A stretch of DNA of 64,000 nt from an uncultured Bacteroidota bacterium (lineage in GTDB: Bacteria > Bacteroidota > Bacteroidia > 2-12-FULL-35-15). Made by a program: the position numbers and the translations under genes. Every line of letters starts with the position of its first letter. Position 1 is the stretch's first letter. The stretch lies in the NCBI GenBank assembly GCA_903926385.1, contig CAIYIS010000052.1:1-64000 (forward strand), in the 5' to 3' direction. This document shows, one piece after another, positions 13,041-63,683 of the stretch. The notes under the pieces were generated by a model that was not told where the DNA came from, did no database searches, and saw only the letters and a list, made by a program, of their open reading frames with translations.

Positions 13041-13754
13041 ATGAATGAAAAAGGAAAATTGTATTTAATACCAACCACTTTAGGAGACGCCTGCGAAACT
13101 GTTGATGTAATCCCTGTAAAGGTGAATCAAATTATAAATTCGATTGATGAGTACATCGTAGAAAATGAAAAATCGGCTCGGAATTACTTAAAAAGAGCGG
13201 GAATAAAAAAGTCATTAAGCGAAATAATTTTACATCCATTAAACCATCACACCGACCCGAATGAAATCGTAAACTATTTAAATTCGATTGAGACAGGAAA
13301 AAACATTGGACTAATTTCTGAAGCAGGATGTCCTGCAGTTGCTGACCCGGGAGAAATAGTGGTAAAGATGGCGCACAAAAAAAACATTGAGGTGATTCCG
13401 CTAGTAGGGCCTTCGTCAATACTTCTTTCTCTTATGTCCAGCGGAATGAATGGGCAGAACTTTGCCTTTAACGGATATTTACCAAAAGAAAGAGGAGAAC
13501 GAGTTGCTAAATTAAAAGAGTTGGAAAAACTGGCAAATCAGAAAAATCAAACTCAATTATTCATAGAAACACCATACAGAAACATGCACATGCTTGAGGA
13601 TATTCTGAAAACATGCGACTCCTCTACCCTCCTCAGCATAGCCTGTGACATTACCCTGCGATCTGAATTTATAAGAACTAAAACAATAGCACAATGGAAA
13701 AAACAAATTCCGGAACTGGCTAAGCGCCCTTCTATTTTTATAATAGGCAAGTAA
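13041..13754 (+). CDS. RsmI-like SAM-dependent methyltransferase
   Basis: This 237-residue protein of the tetrapyrrole methylase superfamily has the N-terminal KLYLIPTTLGD (RsmI proteins have LYLVATPIGN), the SAM-loop segment SEAGCPAVADPGE, and the GPSSILLSLMSSGM helix. RsmI 2'-O-methylates C1402 of 16S rRNA. The altered N-terminal motif (IPTTLGD) marks a Bacteroidota branch whose substrate I cannot fix, so I leave the symbol blank. It is probably co-transcribed with the phosphatase upstream and converges on the glycosyltransferase gene 4 bp away. Confidence 0.85.
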   Translation: MNEKGKLYLIPTTLGDACETVDVIPVKVNQIINSIDEYIVENEKSARNYLKRAGIKKSLSEIILHPLNHHTDPNEIVNYLNSIETGKNIGLISEAGCPAVADPGEIVVKMAHKKNIEVIPLVGPSSILLSLMSSGMNGQNFAFNGYLPKERGERVAKLKELEKLANQKNQTQLFIETPYRNMHMLEDILKTCDSSTLLSIACDITLRSEFIRTKTIAQWKKQIPELAKRPSIFIIGK

Positions 13755-13758
13755 TCGA

Positions 13759-15066
13759 TTAGAGTTTTAGAGCTTTTGCTTGACGAGAAGACTTTGCAGG
13801 ATTCCATTCATCTTTGTATGACGCTTTAAAGAATAATTCCTGAACATAAGCAGTAGTACGCACAATTCGAAGAAAGTAACCGAAATAAAACACCATTAGC
13901 GGTAAGTAAATAAGGAAATAGGTAATCCCTTCGTTTTTTCTATCCCTGAAAGGAGAAAACACAAGAAATTTCATCAGATTGTTTACAGTATACAAACAAA
14001 TATTCATTGGGACTATAAAAATCAACTGAGAGGAGAAATTGAATACCATGTCGAGTAAGTAGAAATACCACTTGATGTTAAGAAGCAAGTTGTAAGTAAC
14101 ATTTTCAACAAAGGAGATGAAGTTAGAAAACTTGAACGAATCATTAGGGAAAAACACATCTCTATGCTTACGCAAACGAAACCGGATTAGTGATTTATCC
14201 CAACGCAAACGTTGTTTAACCAACCTTTTGAATGTTACCGGCACACTTGTCTGACAAACAGCCGTTGGTTCAAAATGAATAATGTACCCTAATTTACGAA
14301 CCTTAACAGTTATATCTCCATCCAGCCCAGGCCCGATATCCCAACCACCAAGTCTGTCTAATGCTTCTTTTCTGAACGCACCAAACGCACCGGAAATAAC
14401 ACGATAAATACCCAACTCACTTGAAGTGATACGCCCAATTGATATGGTATCCATATATTCCAATGCCTGCAATGTAGCACATAAACTTTCTTTATAATTC
14501 CGCACCTGAACGTTTCCTCCTACAGCTCCTATTTTTGGGTTGTAATAGAATGGAACCAGAATATTTTCTATTGCATCTCGGTCGTAAGAACAATCGGCAT
14601 CAAAGTGAATAACAAATTCACCACGAGAATAACGTAATCCCAAATTTGCCGCAGATGCTTTACCTCCTCTAACATCATTTCGATAAAAAGCATTAATCAT
14701 CCCTCTATGTTCGAGATTTCGACAAATTGCGGCAGTATCATCATCTGAACCATCATCAATAACAATCAATTCAAAATTCTGATACGTCTGTTCTTTCAGA
14801 GAGTTTACTAAATTATAGATATGTTTCCCTTCATTTTTCCCAGGAACGATGATAGAAACCAAGGGTTGATTTTGCCATAAAGAAAGGCGTGCATCCGCAA
14901 TACCTTTTTTACGGAAGATACTGTCAAATTTCCAGAAAATAATAGTGGATATCTCAATAAGAAAGAAACGAAAAAATTCGAAAATGAAGAAAAACCAAAA
15001 CATCCTGAAGAGTTTGGCGGCATCTACCGAAGATATATAATTTATAAATTCGTCAAGAAACTTCAT
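13759..15066 (-). CDS. Processive family 2 glycosyltransferase (EPS synthase)
   Basis: This 435-residue membrane enzyme has an N-terminal helix (about 20-45), a cytoplasmic GT-A domain with IDDGSDDD (D104-D105), the DAD metal motif at 156-158 (HFDADCS), a third Asp in LDGDIT (about 250) and QRLRW at 285-289, then about four C-terminal helices. D, DxD, D, Q(Q/R)xRW is the signature of processive synthases such as PgaC, NodC and BcsA, so it probably polymerises and extrudes a beta-linked polysaccharide. It is the last gene of the operon that starts at 19759; its ATG overlaps the upstream stop (TAATG). It lacks a PilZ domain, so any c-di-GMP control would have to come from the partner protein. 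Confidence 0.9.
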   Translation of the reverse strand: MKFLDEFINYISSVDAAKLFRMFWFFFIFEFFRFFLIEISTIIFWKFDSIFRKKGIADARLSLWQNQPLVSIIVPGKNEGKHIYNLVNSLKEQTYQNFELIVIDDGSDDDTAAICRNLEHRGMINAFYRNDVRGGKASAANLGLRYSRGEFVIHFDADCSYDRDAIENILVPFYYNPKIGAVGGNVQVRNYKESLCATLQALEYMDTISIGRITSSELGIYRVISGAFGAFRKEALDRLGGWDIGPGLDGDITVKVRKLGYIIHFEPTAVCQTSVPVTFKRLVKQRLRWDKSLIRFRLRKHRDVFFPNDSFKFSNFISFVENVTYNLLLNIKWYFYLLDMVFNFSSQLIFIVPMNICLYTVNNLMKFLVFSPFRDRKNEGITYFLIYLPLMVFYFGYFLRIVRTTAYVQELFFKASYKDEWNPAKSSRQAKALKL

Positions 15067-16499
15067 TAATCAAATAAGTCCTTGGTTAATTCCTGCAATT
15101 GCAGCTCAGATTTACTGAAAGGTTGAAGTTCTCTAACTTTAAAATTGAATTTTATCTCAAAGTCATTATAATTGTTTTTGACAAGCTTTTCAACCAATGT
15201 TTTTAAATTCATGAAATTTCTTTCAGACTGAACAAAATCAGTGTTTATTAATCCTAAATACAAAGTTGAAGAATTTTCTAAAGCCATGAAATCTGTTGGT
15301 TTTATGTTCTCTCGTATAAGATTTACGATGTTTTCCAGAATTGCTTTTTCTGACTTTTTGCCAATCTTTTTGTACAACTCAAGAATATTTTCAATATTTA
15401 CGATTGCAATAGCTGATTTTTGTTCCGAGTTTTCTTTAATACGTTCAATTTCGTAATGCAACATAGTTTTGAAAACCGGCAGTGCAATGGTTCCGAAAAT
15501 ATCATCCACTTCTTTTCCACTCGATAAAAAGCCACTAGCAGCGGCAGTACGTCCTCTTTTGGTAAGTTTGTATATATTGATGGATTTAGGAATCAGGTAT
15601 TGAACCTCGATATCCTGTGTGCAGGAAATACATTTTGCCTTAACAAAAAAGTCTTGAAAATTCTTATCGCAGTTATTGCAATGGTGAATAATAGAAGGTT
15701 TGTCATAATCTACTCCAATGTGACGAAGCGCTTTATTACATTTTGGACAAGTAAGAGAATTGTCTATTGAATTTCTAAAATCAGAAATCGGGCCGATGTA
15801 AGCACAAGGGAAATGGTGCACCAAATCTTGAGCACTTGAGTTGGATGAATTACAGTGAGGACATACTTCTCGATAACTTAAAAATCCTCCTCCGCATTGA
15901 TTACACAAGTAAATTCTCTCATAAAAATCTGGCCAGATCAACCCTTCCTTTTCTCCCCAACTAAGAATTTCAAGAACCTGAGTCTCCTCTGTTGAATCAA
16001 AGTTTATAGAAATTTCAGGATAAGTATAACCAATACTTGACTTTAAGTCAGGAATAGGAGTTAAAGATTTCACTTCGCGAGTGAACATGAAATTCAAAAC
16101 TTTTTTTATCATTTGCCCTTCGAAAGTGGCTACTGGTTGATAATCGAGTTGAGTGGTTCTTAAAAAAATCTGTTTTGTTGTGTCTGCAATTTCTTTTAAC
16201 TGATCATAGGAGTGAATAATCCCATCATTCATATTTTCAAGAATAGGATCTTTTACTTCCTTATAATTAATAAAGAAAACAGGTTTTAAATAGAATTCAG
16301 GATTGTAATGACCACGAATTTTTTTCAAAATCAGCTTTGTGAATTCCGCATCTTTTGCATCTATAATTATTGCATCGTATCCTATTAAATGTTCAATCTT
16401 AATAGTACTGTTGCTATCGATTATATAAAAAACAAGATTATCGAATTCGATCTTATTATTTTTTATTTCGAAGGAATGAGGAACCACATTTGATGACAT
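15066..16499 (-). CDS. Zinc-ribbon protein with degenerate GGDEF-like domain
   Basis: I recognise three segments in the 477 residues. Residues 1-120 look like a degenerate receiver fold. Residues about 195-305 hold four Cys-X2-Cys pairs (CNQC, CPHC, CPKC, CNNC, plus CISC), expected to bind zinc and reminiscent of the TackOD1 output domain. Residues about 330-470 have the alternating pattern of a GGDEF domain (AIAIVNIENILELYKKIGKK), but the catalytic loop reads NSSTLYLG instead of GGDEF, so cyclase activity is unlikely. The gene lies between the HlyD adaptor and the synthase, so I infer a regulator or c-di-GMP-type sensor for the exopolysaccharide machine. The domain names are from memory. Confidence 0.7.
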   Translation of the reverse strand: MSSNVVPHSFEIKNNKIEFDNLVFYIIDSNSTIKIEHLIGYDAIIIDAKDAEFTKLILKKIRGHYNPEFYLKPVFFINYKEVKDPILENMNDGIIHSYDQLKEIADTTKQIFLRTTQLDYQPVATFEGQMIKKVLNFMFTREVKSLTPIPDLKSSIGYTYPEISINFDSTEETQVLEILSWGEKEGLIWPDFYERIYLCNQCGGGFLSYREVCPHCNSSNSSAQDLVHHFPCAYIGPISDFRNSIDNSLTCPKCNKALRHIGVDYDKPSIIHHCNNCDKNFQDFFVKAKCISCTQDIEVQYLIPKSINIYKLTKRGRTAAASGFLSSGKEVDDIFGTIALPVFKTMLHYEIERIKENSEQKSAIAIVNIENILELYKKIGKKSEKAILENIVNLIRENIKPTDFMALENSSTLYLGLINTDFVQSERNFMNLKTLVEKLVKNNYNDFEIKFNFKVRELQPFSKSELQLQELTKDLFD

Positions 16500-16520
16500 G
16501 ATGATTGTAATTTATTCGGA

Positions 16521-17627
16521 TTAGTATTTATATTTGGTTATCGTTGCACCCAACTTGTAGAATGACTTCCAGTGCTTGTATTCCGATTCCTCTACAGGAT
16601 AAATATCGGCTGCAATAGTTCGAGTTGTTGGTTCGTATCGTTTCTGAAACTCATCAGGTAATGAATAGGTGGCATAATAAAACCGTCTGATAACTCCGGT
16701 GCTTTTAGTTCCATCAGGAAATTCTATATTCACTAAATCTCCTTCTTTAAAATAGCTCATGTCAGCCTGATCAAAAAATCCTTTAATAAACATGGGAGTG
16801 TTTTTATGAATGGCCAATATCTGTTCAGATTTTAAAGCAACCTCGAACTGTTGAGTATATATACGAGTTACCGTACCATTAATAGGAGAATAAAACACTT
16901 TTATACTGTCGTGATTGTCTCCGTCCCCTCCATTTCCTCCAGCGCCAACAAATAAACCGTTTCGAGTGCTCTTGATTGCCGCTTGTTTTGCGGCAACACT
17001 CAACTGCTCTATTAATCGTCTGTATTGACCGTTCTCACTATTTAGCTTTTCTATTTCCGTCTTAAGAGTAATCATTTCGTTTTGTACATAATCCAAACGG
17101 CTTTTAGGCATTACATCCAGGACAACTTCGTTACGCAACCGTTCCAATTCTGACTCATAACTCAAAAACAAAGAACGATTTTGAGCAATCTCTATTTGGT
17201 TGTCACCAATTTTTCTTTCTAATGCGTACTTTTCTTTTTCCCTCCAATCAGATGAATTTTGATAAGTTGTATCATTCAGCGCACCCTTTATTCCTCCCAC
17301 AACACCGCCATTTCCTCCATTATATGCATCTTTATCTGGTGTGTAAATAAATAAAGAATCTCCTTTTCTAACTGTATCACCTTCCTTTTTCTGGTATGCC
17401 AATATTCGACAATCATTAGTTAAACGAATAATTACGTTCTCGTATAATACCTGTCCATCTGCTTTAATATAAAACATCTTATTTACCGCGTAGTAACCGA
17501 GGAATACAAGAGCACCAATAATAAACACAATATAAACAACACGATCCCAATTGTATTTTATCTTCTTGGTGTCTTCGTTCATTACTCGAATTGCCGAGCC
17601 TTTCCGTTTAAAATCTATACTTTTCAA
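16521..17627 (-). CDS. HlyD-family periplasmic adaptor subunit
   Basis: This 368-residue membrane-fusion protein has one N-terminal transmembrane helix (VVYIVFIIGALVFLGYYAV, about 30-48), a biotinyl-lipoyl half motif (YQKKEGDTVRKGDSLF), a coiled-coil hairpin (about 115-205), the second lipoyl half (SPINGTVTRIYTQ) and a beta-barrel. Two Gly/Asn-rich loops (AYNGGNGG and GAGGNGGDGDNHDS) interrupt the lipoyl region, which is unusual. HlyD proteins bridge an inner-membrane exporter to a TolC channel; here the neighbours are a TolC-like fusion 17 bp upstream and a polysaccharide synthase downstream. An alternative ATG lies 15 codons inside. Confidence 0.88.
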   Translation of the reverse strand: MKSIDFKRKGSAIRVMNEDTKKIKYNWDRVVYIVFIIGALVFLGYYAVNKMFYIKADGQVLYENVIIRLTNDCRILAYQKKEGDTVRKGDSLFIYTPDKDAYNGGNGGVVGGIKGALNDTTYQNSSDWREKEKYALERKIGDNQIEIAQNRSLFLSYESELERLRNEVVLDVMPKSRLDYVQNEMITLKTEIEKLNSENGQYRRLIEQLSVAAKQAAIKSTRNGLFVGAGGNGGDGDNHDSIKVFYSPINGTVTRIYTQQFEVALKSEQILAIHKNTPMFIKGFFDQADMSYFKEGDLVNIEFPDGTKSTGVIRRFYYATYSLPDEFQKRYEPTTRTIAADIYPVEESEYKHWKSFYKLGATITKYKY

Positions 17628-17644
17628 AATAATTAATTTTTGGT

Positions 17645-19759
17645 TTATTTCTGATTGTGATTTACACTTATCTCATCTAATTTTACAAATGTTTCAAAAT
17701 CGTGCATAGCAAAGTTAGTTGTAGACAACAATTGCCCTAATTCAGAAACCAACTTTTCGTACTCATTTCTGTCAGTAAAATCTTTTGCTCTCAAGGCAAT
17801 TACTGTTTTTAACGGATCTATTTCCATTTCTTCCTTAACCTTTCTTACTATGTAATCTGAATCTTTATGTTCATAAGCCATCACGTATACGTGGTCAGCT
17901 TGTCCATATATCTCCTTCAAAGTTTCTTCAGGGAAGAAAACCGGAATGGAAACACTTAATTGCAGATTGTTTTGTGAACAATAGGTTTTAGTTGCTTTTA
18001 ATAAATCAACATATTTTTTCAGGTAATCTTCTTTATTGGCCGCCCAGTCTTTCATGGCCTGAGGTTCTACATCCAAGTGAATGGCAGATAAGGTTTTTAA
18101 ATCCAACCCACTTGTAATGGATTCGATAACCATGACAGGATTGTCTGAATTAAGTATATTATTATTCCCGATGAGAAGTTCAACTTTGATTCCTTTTGAA
18201 TTCAACTTGCCTATTAAAGATACCGCCTGTGTTTTATTAGACTGGTCTTTCTTCAATGATAATATTGCAGTAGAAACTTTATTAAGTCGTAAATATTCTG
18301 CAATATAAGATGGCTCATATTTGTTTTGAGCTTCAGACCAAATATAAATACTTCTGTTCGCTTTTTCCGAAGCCATCGACAATGTATCCATCTTATAAGG
18401 TTTGATCATTTTTGCAATATCAGTAGTTGGTGCCTTAGAATGGATGTCGAGTAACTGCAAGTACATTTGCTGTTGAATATCCAATAATTCCACATCCACG
18501 GAGAGCATTTCGTCCAAAAGATTGAGAGCAGTGAGGGGATTAAACTCCATATCTTTAAATTTCTCCTTTACGCTTTCAATTCGAATTAACTCTTCATATT
18601 TTTTCCTTTTTTCATAAAAGTTACTGTATTGTTTGAGTTTATATCTGAATTCGTAAAAGGAATTTATCAAATCCGTTTTCTGTGCATTTTGGCTGTCCCT
18701 CTGATTAAATTCAATTAATTTGGTTTGTGCATTAATCAAATTTTTGTTGGCTTTAAAGCTCAACGGAATTGGCACTGCCACTCCAATTCCAGCGGATATA
18801 AAGCTCCTATTGGCTTGTGTGTTACTTATTAAATCATAATAATTGTACCTAACCTGAGTATTTACTTTAATATCGGTAAGTGGTTTGTGAGTGAGTTTTA
18901 AATTCTCAATTTTAAGTTTCAAAATATCTTCGTTCAATTTTGCACTTTGCGAAGCAGAATCAACAGACAAGTATTTTGACATATCCACATCAAATACGGG
19001 TAAGACATTGGTTGGAATTGAATCCACATTCATCTTTAATTTCAATTCGTCATTATAGCTTTTATAAATCCGAGTCATACTGCCCACATCAACTTGTTGC
19101 TGCATTATTTCGAGCATATTGAGTCGAGACAAATCTTTTAACAAGTACAACTCATTAGCAACCGAAATTTTATCATCAATAATTTGCTGACGTTTTTCAA
19201 GAATCTTTATTTTATGAATATTAAACGAGTAAATTATTTTATGCGAAATGGCAACATAATTCTCTCCATCTGTCTTTTTAGTTTCGGGAGTTAACGAAAG
19301 AATTTCATTCTCGTTTTTAAGAATTTGTTGCTTATAACGGTGTTCAAAAAAACCATCACCTAAAACGTTCCAATCTAATCCAGCTTGAACTCTGTATTGA
19401 TAAAGCAGATTGTCTTCAGAATTAAATCCCGGATCAAAATTGTGCAAATAACTTCCTACAGCCTCCAAACCTATATCCTGTTTGAGCAGTTTTATCCTTG
19501 CTTCATTAACCTTCTTAACATATTCTTTATCAGAAACCGATTCCTTAGTAGTTATCTTGAAAATTTTAGGAATAGCATCAAAGCTTTCGTAGCTAAAATT
19601 AGTTTTAGCGAGGGGGTTATCCAAATTCCAGACAGCATGCAATTCCGCTATTTTAAAAGAAACAAGCGAATCTTTCCTCGTTTTGGATTGTGCAGAGACC
19701 TGTAACCCAATGAAAAGAAAAAACGAACTAAGAAAAACAACCTTGACTGACCACTTCAT
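17645..19759 (-). CDS. TolC-like outer-membrane protein fused to GH18-like domain
   Basis: From the ATG at 19759 the protein has a signal peptide (MKWSVKVVFLSSFFLFIGLQ) and about 704 residues. About 60-465 is mostly long amphipathic helices with AHY/NxP-type turns like outer-membrane efflux (TolC) proteins. About 490-700 looks like a TIM barrel: IHLDVEPQ resembles the catalytic DxDxE strand of GH18-type hydrolases and HVYVMAYEHKD matches their later MxY strand. A -7 box lies at 19803-19810, downstream of the longer frame's start at 19873, which rules out that start. It heads the exopolysaccharide operon; the hydrolase part could trim or process exported polymer. A channel-hydrolase fusion of this kind is not one I know. 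Confidence 0.75.
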   Translation of the reverse strand: MKWSVKVVFLSSFFLFIGLQVSAQSKTRKDSLVSFKIAELHAVWNLDNPLAKTNFSYESFDAIPKIFKITTKESVSDKEYVKKVNEARIKLLKQDIGLEAVGSYLHNFDPGFNSEDNLLYQYRVQAGLDWNVLGDGFFEHRYKQQILKNENEILSLTPETKKTDGENYVAISHKIIYSFNIHKIKILEKRQQIIDDKISVANELYLLKDLSRLNMLEIMQQQVDVGSMTRIYKSYNDELKLKMNVDSIPTNVLPVFDVDMSKYLSVDSASQSAKLNEDILKLKIENLKLTHKPLTDIKVNTQVRYNYYDLISNTQANRSFISAGIGVAVPIPLSFKANKNLINAQTKLIEFNQRDSQNAQKTDLINSFYEFRYKLKQYSNFYEKRKKYEELIRIESVKEKFKDMEFNPLTALNLLDEMLSVDVELLDIQQQMYLQLLDIHSKAPTTDIAKMIKPYKMDTLSMASEKANRSIYIWSEAQNKYEPSYIAEYLRLNKVSTAILSLKKDQSNKTQAVSLIGKLNSKGIKVELLIGNNNILNSDNPVMVIESITSGLDLKTLSAIHLDVEPQAMKDWAANKEDYLKKYVDLLKATKTYCSQNNLQLSVSIPVFFPEETLKEIYGQADHVYVMAYEHKDSDYIVRKVKEEMEIDPLKTVIALRAKDFTDRNEYEKLVSELGQLLSTTNFAMHDFETFVKLDEISVNHNQK

Positions 19760-19802: not shown

Positions 19803-19810
19803 CAAATATA
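19803..19810 (-). promoter_or_regulatory. -7 box of exopolysaccharide operon, TATATTTG
   Basis: A minus-strand TAnnTTTG box 43 bp before the ATG at 19759, implying a leader of about 38 nt. It sits inside the longer frame that begins at 19873, so it decides the start codon. Confidence 0.6.
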
Positions 19811-19884
19811 TAAACAAAATTTCGAAAAAAACAAATGATGACCGTCATGTAACACATAGTTAATGACAGGCAAATGTTAATAAC

Positions 19885-61406: not shown

Positions 61407-63683
61407 TTACACCCTTACACCTATCACCAGTATATCATCTATCTGCTCTACTGTTCTGCGGTAGTTTTCTAAGAATTTTTTAAGTTCTTCGCCTTGTTGC
61501 TGCATATCGTAATTTTGAATAGAAAGCAGAAGTTCTTTAAATCTTTTTCGTGTAAGTTTTTTATCTCCGGTATCGCCTCCAAATTGATCTGCAAAACCAT
61601 CGGTGAAGAGATAAATGGTATCTCCACTAGTCAAAATTAAGGTATGATTAGTAAATGGCTTACTGTCTTCGTTCATACCAATGGGCTGTTTGTCAGCTTT
61701 GGTTTCTATTAGTTCAAAGTTGGACTGTTGGGTGTTGCGTACTATCCAAAGTGGGTTATTGGCTCCGGCCCACTGCAATTCCTTTGTTTCAAGATTAAGT
61801 GCACAAAGCGATACATCCATTCCGTCTTTTATCAGTTCCTCACTGGTTGAAAAATTTTCTATCACCAGTTCATCAGTTTTATCCAGTATTTCGGATGGTT
61901 TGGTGAGGCCAAACTCCCGAACGGCTCTGTTGAGAGCATTGTGACAAACTACCGACACCATCGCTCCCGGCACACCATGTCCCGTACAATCGCAGGCAGC
62001 AAAAAGTATGGCCCCTCCCGACCTCCCCGAAGGGGAGGAGATGTTGCTTGCAAATTCTTTGTGCATAGTATTTCCGGGTATAGTCATCTCCCCTTCGGGG
62101 TGGCTGGGAGGGACCTGTTCCATCCAGTAAAAATCACCTGCTACAATATCCTTTGGTAAATAAAGAATAAAAGAGTTTTCGAGGTACTGTTTAACAATAC
62201 GTGGAGGTGGAAGTATTGCCGTTTGTATGCGCAGGGCATATTCAATACTATCTAAAATTTCGCGCTGCTTTTCTTCTACTATTGTTTTTTGCGTTTCGAT
62301 AACTTGTTTTTGTTCCTTCAGTTTTTTATTACTTTGCTTGCGAAGATAATTGCTCCGAATGATGAAGAACAACAAAACAATAAACAAAAGAGTACTCAAT
62401 AGAAAATAAATAATAATTTGTTGTGAGTGGCTTAGTTCGGAATCTTTGTTATTCAGCAGTTCCATACTCTTATCGTTTTCGGATTGAAGTCTGGTAATTT
62501 GCTGTTGTTTTTTAAATGCATCATACTTTGTATTTAAATCAGTAATCTGACTGAACAAAGCCGAATTCAATTCGCTATTGCCGGAATTTACAATATCGGT
62601 GAGCACCTGGTATTCTGCATTTTTTATTTCGTACCTTATATTGGTTAGTGTATTAAAAATATATAAAAAGGGCTTATGATAGAAATTGGCCATTTCCCAT
62701 TTTAATGGCTCCCCTTCGGCATCTGTATAATTATCTGTTTTCAGGTTAAAACCTTCTTCAATGATGGTGCGGTTTTGAGTTTGCACCATGTTGAGTAACG
62801 AATCTCTATATGCATGAATTACGGTTTTTAATTTAAATGCCGAATACCAGCCTTTATTCAGATCATATTCATTCCCTATCAAAATTTTGGTAGGAATATC
62901 CATATTGTTGGTACTTTGAATATAAATGGAAGAAAGAGTATCGGCTACAGCAATTGGAATATTGTCGGCCTGAGATAACAAGAGTGATTGCAGATTATGA
63001 ATATAGGCAATAGACGAATCGGTAAAAATTTTAAGTTTGATAATTTTATCAAAAAGTACTTTATTTTGATTTTTACTAACACTATTAAGTGTTGCATAAA
63101 ACTGTTGATTGCGCGAAGTAGCGGCTTGCAGTGCTTGTTCGGTGTTTACCCCCTGCATTTGCACAGCATCAATACTTATTTTACCACTGCCCGAACCCGT
63201 AAGTGAACCCACGTAAAGCAAGAAAAAATAAATAACTAAAAAAACAGAGTGAAAACTGATTAAGGAAGAACGACCGGCTTTAACCAGATGATAAAGTCCA
63301 AAAGGCAAAATAACAACAATCAGAATCAAATTGGAGAGGATATACAACGGGCCGCTACCAGGCCAATGCATTAGTTTAAATAAAAATGCGGTTCCAATCA
63401 AGAATAAAATCAGCACTTGAATTATAAGGGCTATTTTTGTTAGAAGAGAGGTTTTAAACCTCCAACTTTCGATGGAGTATAATGGAAGGTAAAATAGCAA
63501 AAAGCAAAAGCTTCCTAAAATAAGCATTGGACTTGCTCCGGGGTAGTGATTTACTTTAAAAAATTCTCCAAGAAGAACAAGTATAGCACTTATCCAGGTG
63601 ATAACAGTAAGCGCTCGCGAGGGCTTTGAATGGAATACAAAGGTAGCGGACAGTTCTGATTTTTTTTTATTTTCTACAGCCAT
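61407..63683 (-). CDS. SpoIIE/PP2C phosphatase with GldL/GldM-like sensor
   Basis: The 758 residues consist of two GldL-like hairpins (FFKVNHYPGAS, 41-51; FKLMHWPGSG, 102-111), a fifth helix, a periplasmic region (about 165-430) with WEMANFYHKPFLYIFNTLTN resembling GldM, a sixth helix (about 430-455), a coiled coil and a SpoIIE-type PP2C domain (about 490-758: DIVAGDFYWMEQ, ACDCTGHGVPGAMVSV, GANNPLWIVR, DTIYLFTDGFADQFGG). The sensor part is homologous to the PadR-linked protein at 49157. Between DFYWMEQV and ILFAACDC about 35 residues encoded by a REP/MITE-like element interrupt the fold in frame. PP2C enzymes of this type act on STAS-domain proteins or anti-sigma factors; none is adjacent. 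Confidence 0.88.
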   Translation of the reverse strand: MAVENKKKSELSATFVFHSKPSRALTVITWISAILVLLGEFFKVNHYPGASPMLILGSFCFLLFYLPLYSIESWRFKTSLLTKIALIIQVLILFLIGTAFLFKLMHWPGSGPLYILSNLILIVVILPFGLYHLVKAGRSSLISFHSVFLVIYFFLLYVGSLTGSGSGKISIDAVQMQGVNTEQALQAATSRNQQFYATLNSVSKNQNKVLFDKIIKLKIFTDSSIAYIHNLQSLLLSQADNIPIAVADTLSSIYIQSTNNMDIPTKILIGNEYDLNKGWYSAFKLKTVIHAYRDSLLNMVQTQNRTIIEEGFNLKTDNYTDAEGEPLKWEMANFYHKPFLYIFNTLTNIRYEIKNAEYQVLTDIVNSGNSELNSALFSQITDLNTKYDAFKKQQQITRLQSENDKSMELLNNKDSELSHSQQIIIYFLLSTLLFIVLLFFIIRSNYLRKQSNKKLKEQKQVIETQKTIVEEKQREILDSIEYALRIQTAILPPPRIVKQYLENSFILYLPKDIVAGDFYWMEQVPPSHPEGEMTIPGNTMHKEFASNISSPSGRSGGAILFAACDCTGHGVPGAMVSVVCHNALNRAVREFGLTKPSEILDKTDELVIENFSTSEELIKDGMDVSLCALNLETKELQWAGANNPLWIVRNTQQSNFELIETKADKQPIGMNEDSKPFTNHTLILTSGDTIYLFTDGFADQFGGDTGDKKLTRKRFKELLLSIQNYDMQQQGEELKKFLENYRRTVEQIDDILVIGVRV
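62011..62114. mobile_element. REP/MITE-like element inserted in a coding region
   Basis: The two ends are inverted: GTCCCTCCCAGCCACCCCGA (minus strand) at one end and CCCTCCCGACCTCCCCGAAG (plus strand) at the other, each followed by GGGGAG and pairing over about 28 bp with mismatches. The interior holds GATGACTATACCCGGAAA. The element lies wholly inside the phosphatase gene and adds about 35 codons without a stop. Similar, smaller pieces occur at 5680, 30384 and 52577. No transposase is seen. Confidence 0.75.

Follow-up and report, generated by a model that had tools for sequence, protein, structure and literature searches.

The four genes at positions 13759-19759 of contig CAIYIS010000052.1, from an uncultured Bacteroidota bacterium, probably form a single cassette that encodes a synthase-dependent exopolysaccharide machine, whose control in Bacteroidota would have shifted to independence from cyclic diguanylate (c-di-GMP). 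The window, i.e., the whole stretch of DNA that was analyzed, covers 64,000 nucleotides of this contig, and the four genes lie on its minus strand. They encode a TolC-type outer-membrane channel (17645-19759; 704 amino acids from the ATG, with a signal peptide), a HlyD-family periplasmic adaptor (16521-17627; TTG start as listed, ATG at 17582), a regulator (15066-16499; 477 amino acids), and a processive-type glycosyltransferase family 2 (GT2) synthase that resembles PgaC/IcaA (13759-15066). The regulator comprises a receiver-like domain, the zinc domain TackOD1, and a degenerate GGDEF domain. The channel ends in a barrel with the fold of glycoside hydrolase family 18 (GH18).

Gene organization and conservation

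The genes are tightly packed, with 17 nucleotides between the channel and HlyD genes, 21 nucleotides between the HlyD and regulator genes, and an overlap of 1 nucleotide between the regulator and synthase genes. The channel starts with the ATG at 19759 that opens the signal peptide; its frame stays open up to a TTG at 19873. An earlier reading of the window from its letters (the original prediction) had proposed these four open reading frames (ORFs) as a single gene block. The positions are right and the order is kept in relatives, and the two motifs quoted in that reading, NSSTLYLG in the regulator and QRLRW in the synthase (14200-14214, minus), are both present.

TackOD1 exceeds its cut-off in 12 of 395 sampled Bacteroidota genomes, the source genome of the window among them. 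The other 11 genomes hold 12 TackOD1 loci (two in G258), and channel, HlyD, and synthase genes stand alongside in 12/12. Among these 12 loci, extra genes are found between HlyD and the regulator in L056-L058 (two) and L054 (one). At the genus and class level, the order channel-HlyD-regulator-synthase is kept at every locus that its contig covers in full. The synteny comparison proposed with the original prediction thus finds the four genes together and not scattered. With both the gene set and its order conserved, the arrangement is not a product of chance.

The cassette is flanked by a DPM-like GT2 gene (PF00535; 19885-20835, minus) and, in convergent orientation, by a methyltransferase-like gene that was named by inspection (13041-13754, plus). 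In cassette-free genomes of the same genus, the ends of these flanks are only 40 bp (L105) and 64 bp (L104) apart, compared to about 6.1 kb with the cassette. The four genes therefore come and go together and are one discrete cassette that is gained or lost as a unit. Three other cassette-free genomes have 684-1769 bp between the flanks, with other ORFs there in two of them; in L102 and L103, the DPM gene lies away from the other flank, so that the neighborhood is not universal. The DPM-like GT2 was considered as a further operon member and rejected, as it persists next to the 13041-13754 gene even where the cassette is missing.

Two observations concern individual loci. G258 carries two cassette copies (L054 and L055) about 15 kb apart, one with the full barrel and one without. 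In L018 (3200-5842, minus), a protein with CotH, lamin-tail, and sorting-signal regions adjoins the synthase, and ORFs of similar size occur in L024, L030, and L031.

Outside Bacteroidota, TackOD1 was found on 15 bacterial and five haloarchaeal plasmid records. All 14 records with the best plasmid matches to the synthase also carry TackOD1, and regulator, GT2, and HlyD genes are adjacent at the inspected proteobacterial plasmid loci. The one haloarchaeal locus that was opened (L069) has no synthase or HlyD neighbor. In Sinorhizobium medicae (L080, 10101-10430), a 109-amino acid TackOD1-like zinc fragment adjoins a pair of GT2 and HlyD-like genes. The mixed-linkage glucan locus bgsBA was considered as a counterpart, and this S. 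medicae locus is at most a candidate for bgs.

The channel and its barrel domain

The TolC family model OEP (PF02321) is matched by 8/12 channel homologues (best E 5e-6) and lies above the cut-off in L054 and L063. The C-terminal barrel is invisible to sequence searches of Pfam, NCBIfam, and the PDB, and was revealed by fold comparison alone. In an AlphaFold model of the channel built from seven sequences, eight beta-alpha units follow each other over model residues 465-701, with block-mean predicted local distance difference test (pLDDT) values of about 66-94. Structural comparison of this domain (17648-18367, minus; model residues 465-704) by VIA-align yields a Z score of 19.4 to the GH18 structure 4wiw and of 18.9 to the C-terminal domain of PgaB (4p7o). 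All of the top 50 rows (Z 17.4-19.4) belong to GH18 chitinases, to chitinase-like proteins, or to hydrolase domains of PgaB. The channel C-terminus is thus an eight-stranded triosephosphate isomerase (TIM) barrel of the same subtype as GH18 and the PgaB hydrolase. This bears out the predicted fusion of a TolC channel with a GH18-like domain, which had been made to depend on the C-terminal part matching a TIM-barrel hydrolase.

GH18 enzymes have four acidic positions on strand 4 (DxxDxDxE). The corresponding motif in the window, HLDVEP (18062-18079, minus), represents the end of this signature and contributes D601 and E603 (ORF numbering). Strand 4 follows the pattern H-[LF]-D-[VI]-E-P in 19/19 homologues that have the barrel: the last aspartate and the glutamate are invariant, and other residues stand at the first two acidic positions. 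Strand 6 reads M-x-Y in 19/19 as well, and the aspartate that follows in the GH18 motif MxYD is mostly E, Q, or G. Since only the last D and E of the four acidic positions persist, the activity of the barrel is uncertain, and catalysis appears plausible.

The barrel may alternatively be a noncatalytic sugar-binding domain that steers the chain into the channel, like the chitinase-like lectins, a possibility that we take seriously without favoring it. It would fit the reduction of the acidic motif to D601 and E603, the chitinase-like growth factor 1jnd at rank 2 of the fold search, and the loss of most of the barrel in some relatives. The invariance of the strand-4 acids and of M-x-Y in all 19 homologues, however, suggests selection on the geometry of an active site.

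The original prediction also treated the fusion as a feature that sets the system apart, which did not last. A plasmid of Aeromonas caviae encodes the regulator, GT2, a 694-amino acid TolC protein that ends in a homologous barrel, and HlyD. Methylocystis carries the two parts as separate genes: a regulator, GT2, and HlyD-like protein are accompanied by an exported barrel protein and TolC. The Bacteroidota barrel alignment matches both in hhalign comparisons (Aeromonas, E 1.2e-8; Methylocystis, E 4.5e-9; shuffled controls, 0.012 or worse). As channel and barrel are fused in two phyla and neighbors in a third lineage, their arrangement argues that the two cooperate.

Two channels deviate from this architecture. 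The channel of L062 (8895-10505, minus) has only a shortened remnant of the barrel at its end, from which the middle strands that bear D-x-E are apparently missing, and that of L034 (805-3450) has an extra YCF48-like stretch (PF14870, 2.9e-14) ahead of the TolC part.

The regulator and the probable loss of c-di-GMP input

The zinc-ribbon protein of the original prediction is a TackOD1 (PF18551) protein. This domain spans 15564-16109 (minus; regulator residues 131-312; 171.8 bits, E 1.6e-50, cut-off 32) and is matched in 17/17 regulator homologues with a conserved cysteine pattern. It is followed by the degenerate GGDEF domain (15069-15515, minus; residues 329-477), whose assignment was confirmed by a profile match to the PDB GGDEF structure 5euh (E 1.2e-4) and by the regulator model, which takes on the fold of the DosC GGDEF domain (4zve, Z 18.1). 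The nucleotide sites of the window regulator (15261-15302, minus) are degenerate in an alignment of 38 homologues, including 28 Bacteroidota, 4 gammaproteobacterial, and six alphaproteobacterial rows: KPTD replaces RxxD, FMALE follows, and the position of the GG(D/E)EF active site is taken by NSSTL, a part of NSSTLYLG (residues 409-416). Profile-profile comparison relates the Bacteroidota regulators to that of Plesiomonas with E 1.5e-28.

The fold rows of PleD, WspR, and DgcR also cover the N-terminal domain of the regulator, but at root-mean-square deviations of 7.5-16 Å, so that receiver-like is the most that we claim for this modeled domain. A canonical receiver domain is part of the regulator in L055, L070, and L074 (by Pfam) and in L059-L061 and L064 (by sequence). 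In six Bacteroidota loci, a receiver-like domain is encoded as a separate gene of 106-119 amino acids. The canonical receiver domains of these relatives suggest control through a phosphorelay or through protein-protein contacts.

Profile searches of the source genome gave no match to the GGDEF, EAL, PilZ, or HD-GYP (HD_5) models, whereas positive controls were matched. Among 24 TackOD1-carrying Bacteroidota genomes, 22 are without a GGDEF match; of the two remaining matches, one is to the regulator and the other, in G005, to a canonical domain. This only canonical GGDEF of the 24 carriers lies on contig C175 (2188-2661) of G005, possibly a contaminant contig. The RxxD site, as RDTD, is kept in 4/4 gammaproteobacterial regulators five residues ahead of the degenerate loop, and is not recognizable in the six alphaproteobacterial rows. 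In Bacteroidota, the aspartate is kept in 27/28 regulators and the arginine in 3/28, with mostly K, N, H, or others instead; the window regulator (KPTD) thus lacks the RxxD of PelD- and BcsE-type c-di-GMP receptors. The original prediction had hinted at a c-di-GMP link for the third protein. Such control appears unlikely, because c-di-GMP domains were not detected in the genome, 22 of the 24 carriers have no GGDEF match, and most Bacteroidota regulators have lost RxxD. In the simplest interpretation, the c-di-GMP input disappeared and a receiver or protein-protein input was retained.

It is improbable, in our judgment, that the regulator has remained a receptor for c-di-GMP or another cyclic dinucleotide, with a binding site that has diverged. 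An intact GGDEF fold, the nearly invariant RxxD aspartate, and the canonical GGDEF of G005 would agree with it, as would PelD and BcsE, which are degenerate GGDEF receptors themselves (PMC8461298, PMC7439463). The missing GGDEF, EAL, HD-GYP, and PilZ matches in the source genome, the rarity of canonical GGDEF domains among the carriers, and the exchange of the arginine in most Bacteroidota regulators speak against it. The wider proposition is evenly balanced: a GGDEF-fold synthase regulator was freed from c-di-GMP in Bacteroidota that apparently lack this nucleotide and is run by receiver or protein-protein signals, the gammaproteobacterial cassette keeps the site, and a hydrolase-like barrel is fused to the exit channel.

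The synthase, the adaptor, and the predicted product

The processive GT2 that the original prediction recognized by its QRLRW motif is a processive-type, PgaC/IcaA-like enzyme. It matches the PgaC equivalog model TIGR03937 with 184.8 bits (E 2.4e-54), below the cut-off of 422.3, and the cellulose synthase (BcsA) equivalog, from which it is distant, with 31.6 bits against a cut-off of 699, and is thus neither a PgaC proper nor a PilZ-bearing BcsA. The synthase has no second close copy in the source genome; the next GT2 scores 58 bits. The predicted HlyD adaptor is supported by a match to HlyD_3 (PF13437) with 24.5 bits, above the cut-off of 22.2.

Members of the TolC and HlyD families are characteristic components of efflux and type I secretion systems, yet a tripartite efflux or protein-secretion system that merely lies beside a glycosyltransferase is very improbable, since the cassette has no ABC, RND, or MFS transporter, the GT2 is the only polytopic inner-membrane partner, and it accompanies TackOD1 and HlyD in Bacteroidota as well as in Alpha- and Gammaproteobacteria.

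TviB is a uridine diphosphate (UDP)-N-acetylglucosamine 6-dehydrogenase. The operons of L054, L056, and L058, in which the channel has no full barrel, contain a dehydrogenase that is nearest to TviB (453-470 bits, cut-off 592), and galE lies inside one alphaproteobacterial operon. From the PgaC-like synthase, the TviB-like and galE neighbors, and the GH18-type barrel, we infer a beta-linked N-acetylhexosamine polymer as the product; the same evidence suggests that different lineages make different N-acetylhexosamine-based polymers.

Proposed mechanism and its weak points

In the proposed machine, the GT2 synthase would polymerize a UDP-sugar, most likely UDP-N-acetylhexosamine, and drive the chain across the inner membrane. 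The HlyD adaptor would connect the synthase to the TolC-type channel in the outer membrane. The barrel at the C-terminus of the channel would be suspended in the periplasm, where it may bind or cut stray or growing polymer. The PgaB hydrolase domain and alginate lyase act likewise on other polymers. The cytoplasmic regulator would switch the synthase on. In the proteobacterial relatives, it probably senses c-di-GMP through its RxxD site; in Bacteroidota, it would have been converted to c-di-GMP-independent control, probably via its receiver domain or a receiver partner.

Several points weigh against this proposal. The machine is a computational prediction. The TolC part of the channel model and the TackOD1 part of the regulator model have low confidence. 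The full barrel, of uncertain catalytic activity, is missing in five Bacteroidota loci and is therefore not essential to the machine. The TackOD1-linked synthases do not all fall into one clade apart from PgaC/IcaA; such a single clade was considered and was not recovered, in an unsure tree with long branches. The absence of c-di-GMP proteins comes from profile searches of a draft genome that is 99.75% complete.

If the proposal holds, a compact exopolysaccharide machine is common to Bacteroidota, Alpha-, and Gammaproteobacteria, and has been annotated piecemeal as "hypothetical protein", "diguanylate cyclase", "TolC", and "HlyD". It would present a natural experiment in which a c-di-GMP-linked regulator evolved into one that works without c-di-GMP. 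The uncharacterized TackOD1 domain gains a bacterial context, and the fused barrel suggests that a polysaccharide-directed activity can be built into a TolC-type channel.

Surroundings of the cassette

A promoter-like site, TTTG-N21-TATATTTG (19803-19835, minus), lies 44 nucleotides upstream of the channel ATG and is found at the same place in the relatives L015 and L017. The pattern has 9 matches in the window compared to 3.45 expected and is weak on its own. Repeats around the cassette look like chance. Elsewhere in the window (61407-63683, minus), a 758-amino acid ORF matches models of the N-terminal parts of GldL and GldM and of the SpoIIE phosphatase, i.e., a gliding-motor-like piece fused to a phosphatase. 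To our knowledge, such a fusion is unusual.

Comparison with known systems

The original prediction did not recognize the set as a named operon. Its parts do differ from those of Pga and Bcs; relatives nevertheless exist, as the TackOD1-GT2-HlyD set is widespread and its gammaproteobacterial form resembles the published mxdABCD. A literature search for a described TolC-hydrolase exopolysaccharide system gave nothing relevant, which, at partial coverage, is weak evidence of novelty.

The closest named synthase is PgaC, and the C-terminal hydrolase domain of PgaB shares the barrel fold. The cassette differs from Pga in that it is devoid of the PgaA porin and PgaD and has TolC and HlyD instead; Pfam detects no PgaB-type deacetylase domain in the four proteins. 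The alginate and Pel systems were compared by their parts alone (general knowledge and PMC8461298). As in BcsE and PelD, degenerate receiver and/or GGDEF domains would control exopolysaccharide synthesis, and the degenerate REC-GGDEF tandem of BcsE (PMC7439463) is like the two ends of the window regulator. In BcsE and PelD, however, RxxD is kept, c-di-GMP is bound, and a TackOD1 insert has not been reported (PMC7439463, PMC8461298). TackOD1 has been described as a zinc domain of archaeal signaling proteins, in which it serves as response-regulator output (PMC5847659); these archaeal and bacterial proteins share the zinc domain of the window regulator, often together with a receiver domain.

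In Shewanella oneidensis, mxdABCD is linked to a putative exopolysaccharide of the solid-surface biofilm and encodes a degenerate-GGDEF regulator that binds c-di-GMP, a GT2, and an efflux-like protein (PMC3691769, PMC7666153, PMC3409153). Both clusters thus unite a degenerate-GGDEF regulator, a GT2, and an adaptor-like "efflux pump" protein. MxdA also binds the receiver protein CheY3 (PMC7666153), a contact that is paralleled by the fused receiver domains in relatives of the window regulator. The difference is that MxdA binds c-di-GMP, whereas the site in the window is degenerate and a c-di-GMP enzyme was not found in the genome. Mxd appears to be the closest experimentally studied system, likened here by its published parts and not by sequence, and kinship between the two is a lead. 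The cassette is a genuine variant of synthase-dependent exopolysaccharide machinery that spans phyla, and not a new class; it has an unusual fusion of channel and barrel and a regulator that is probably free of c-di-GMP.

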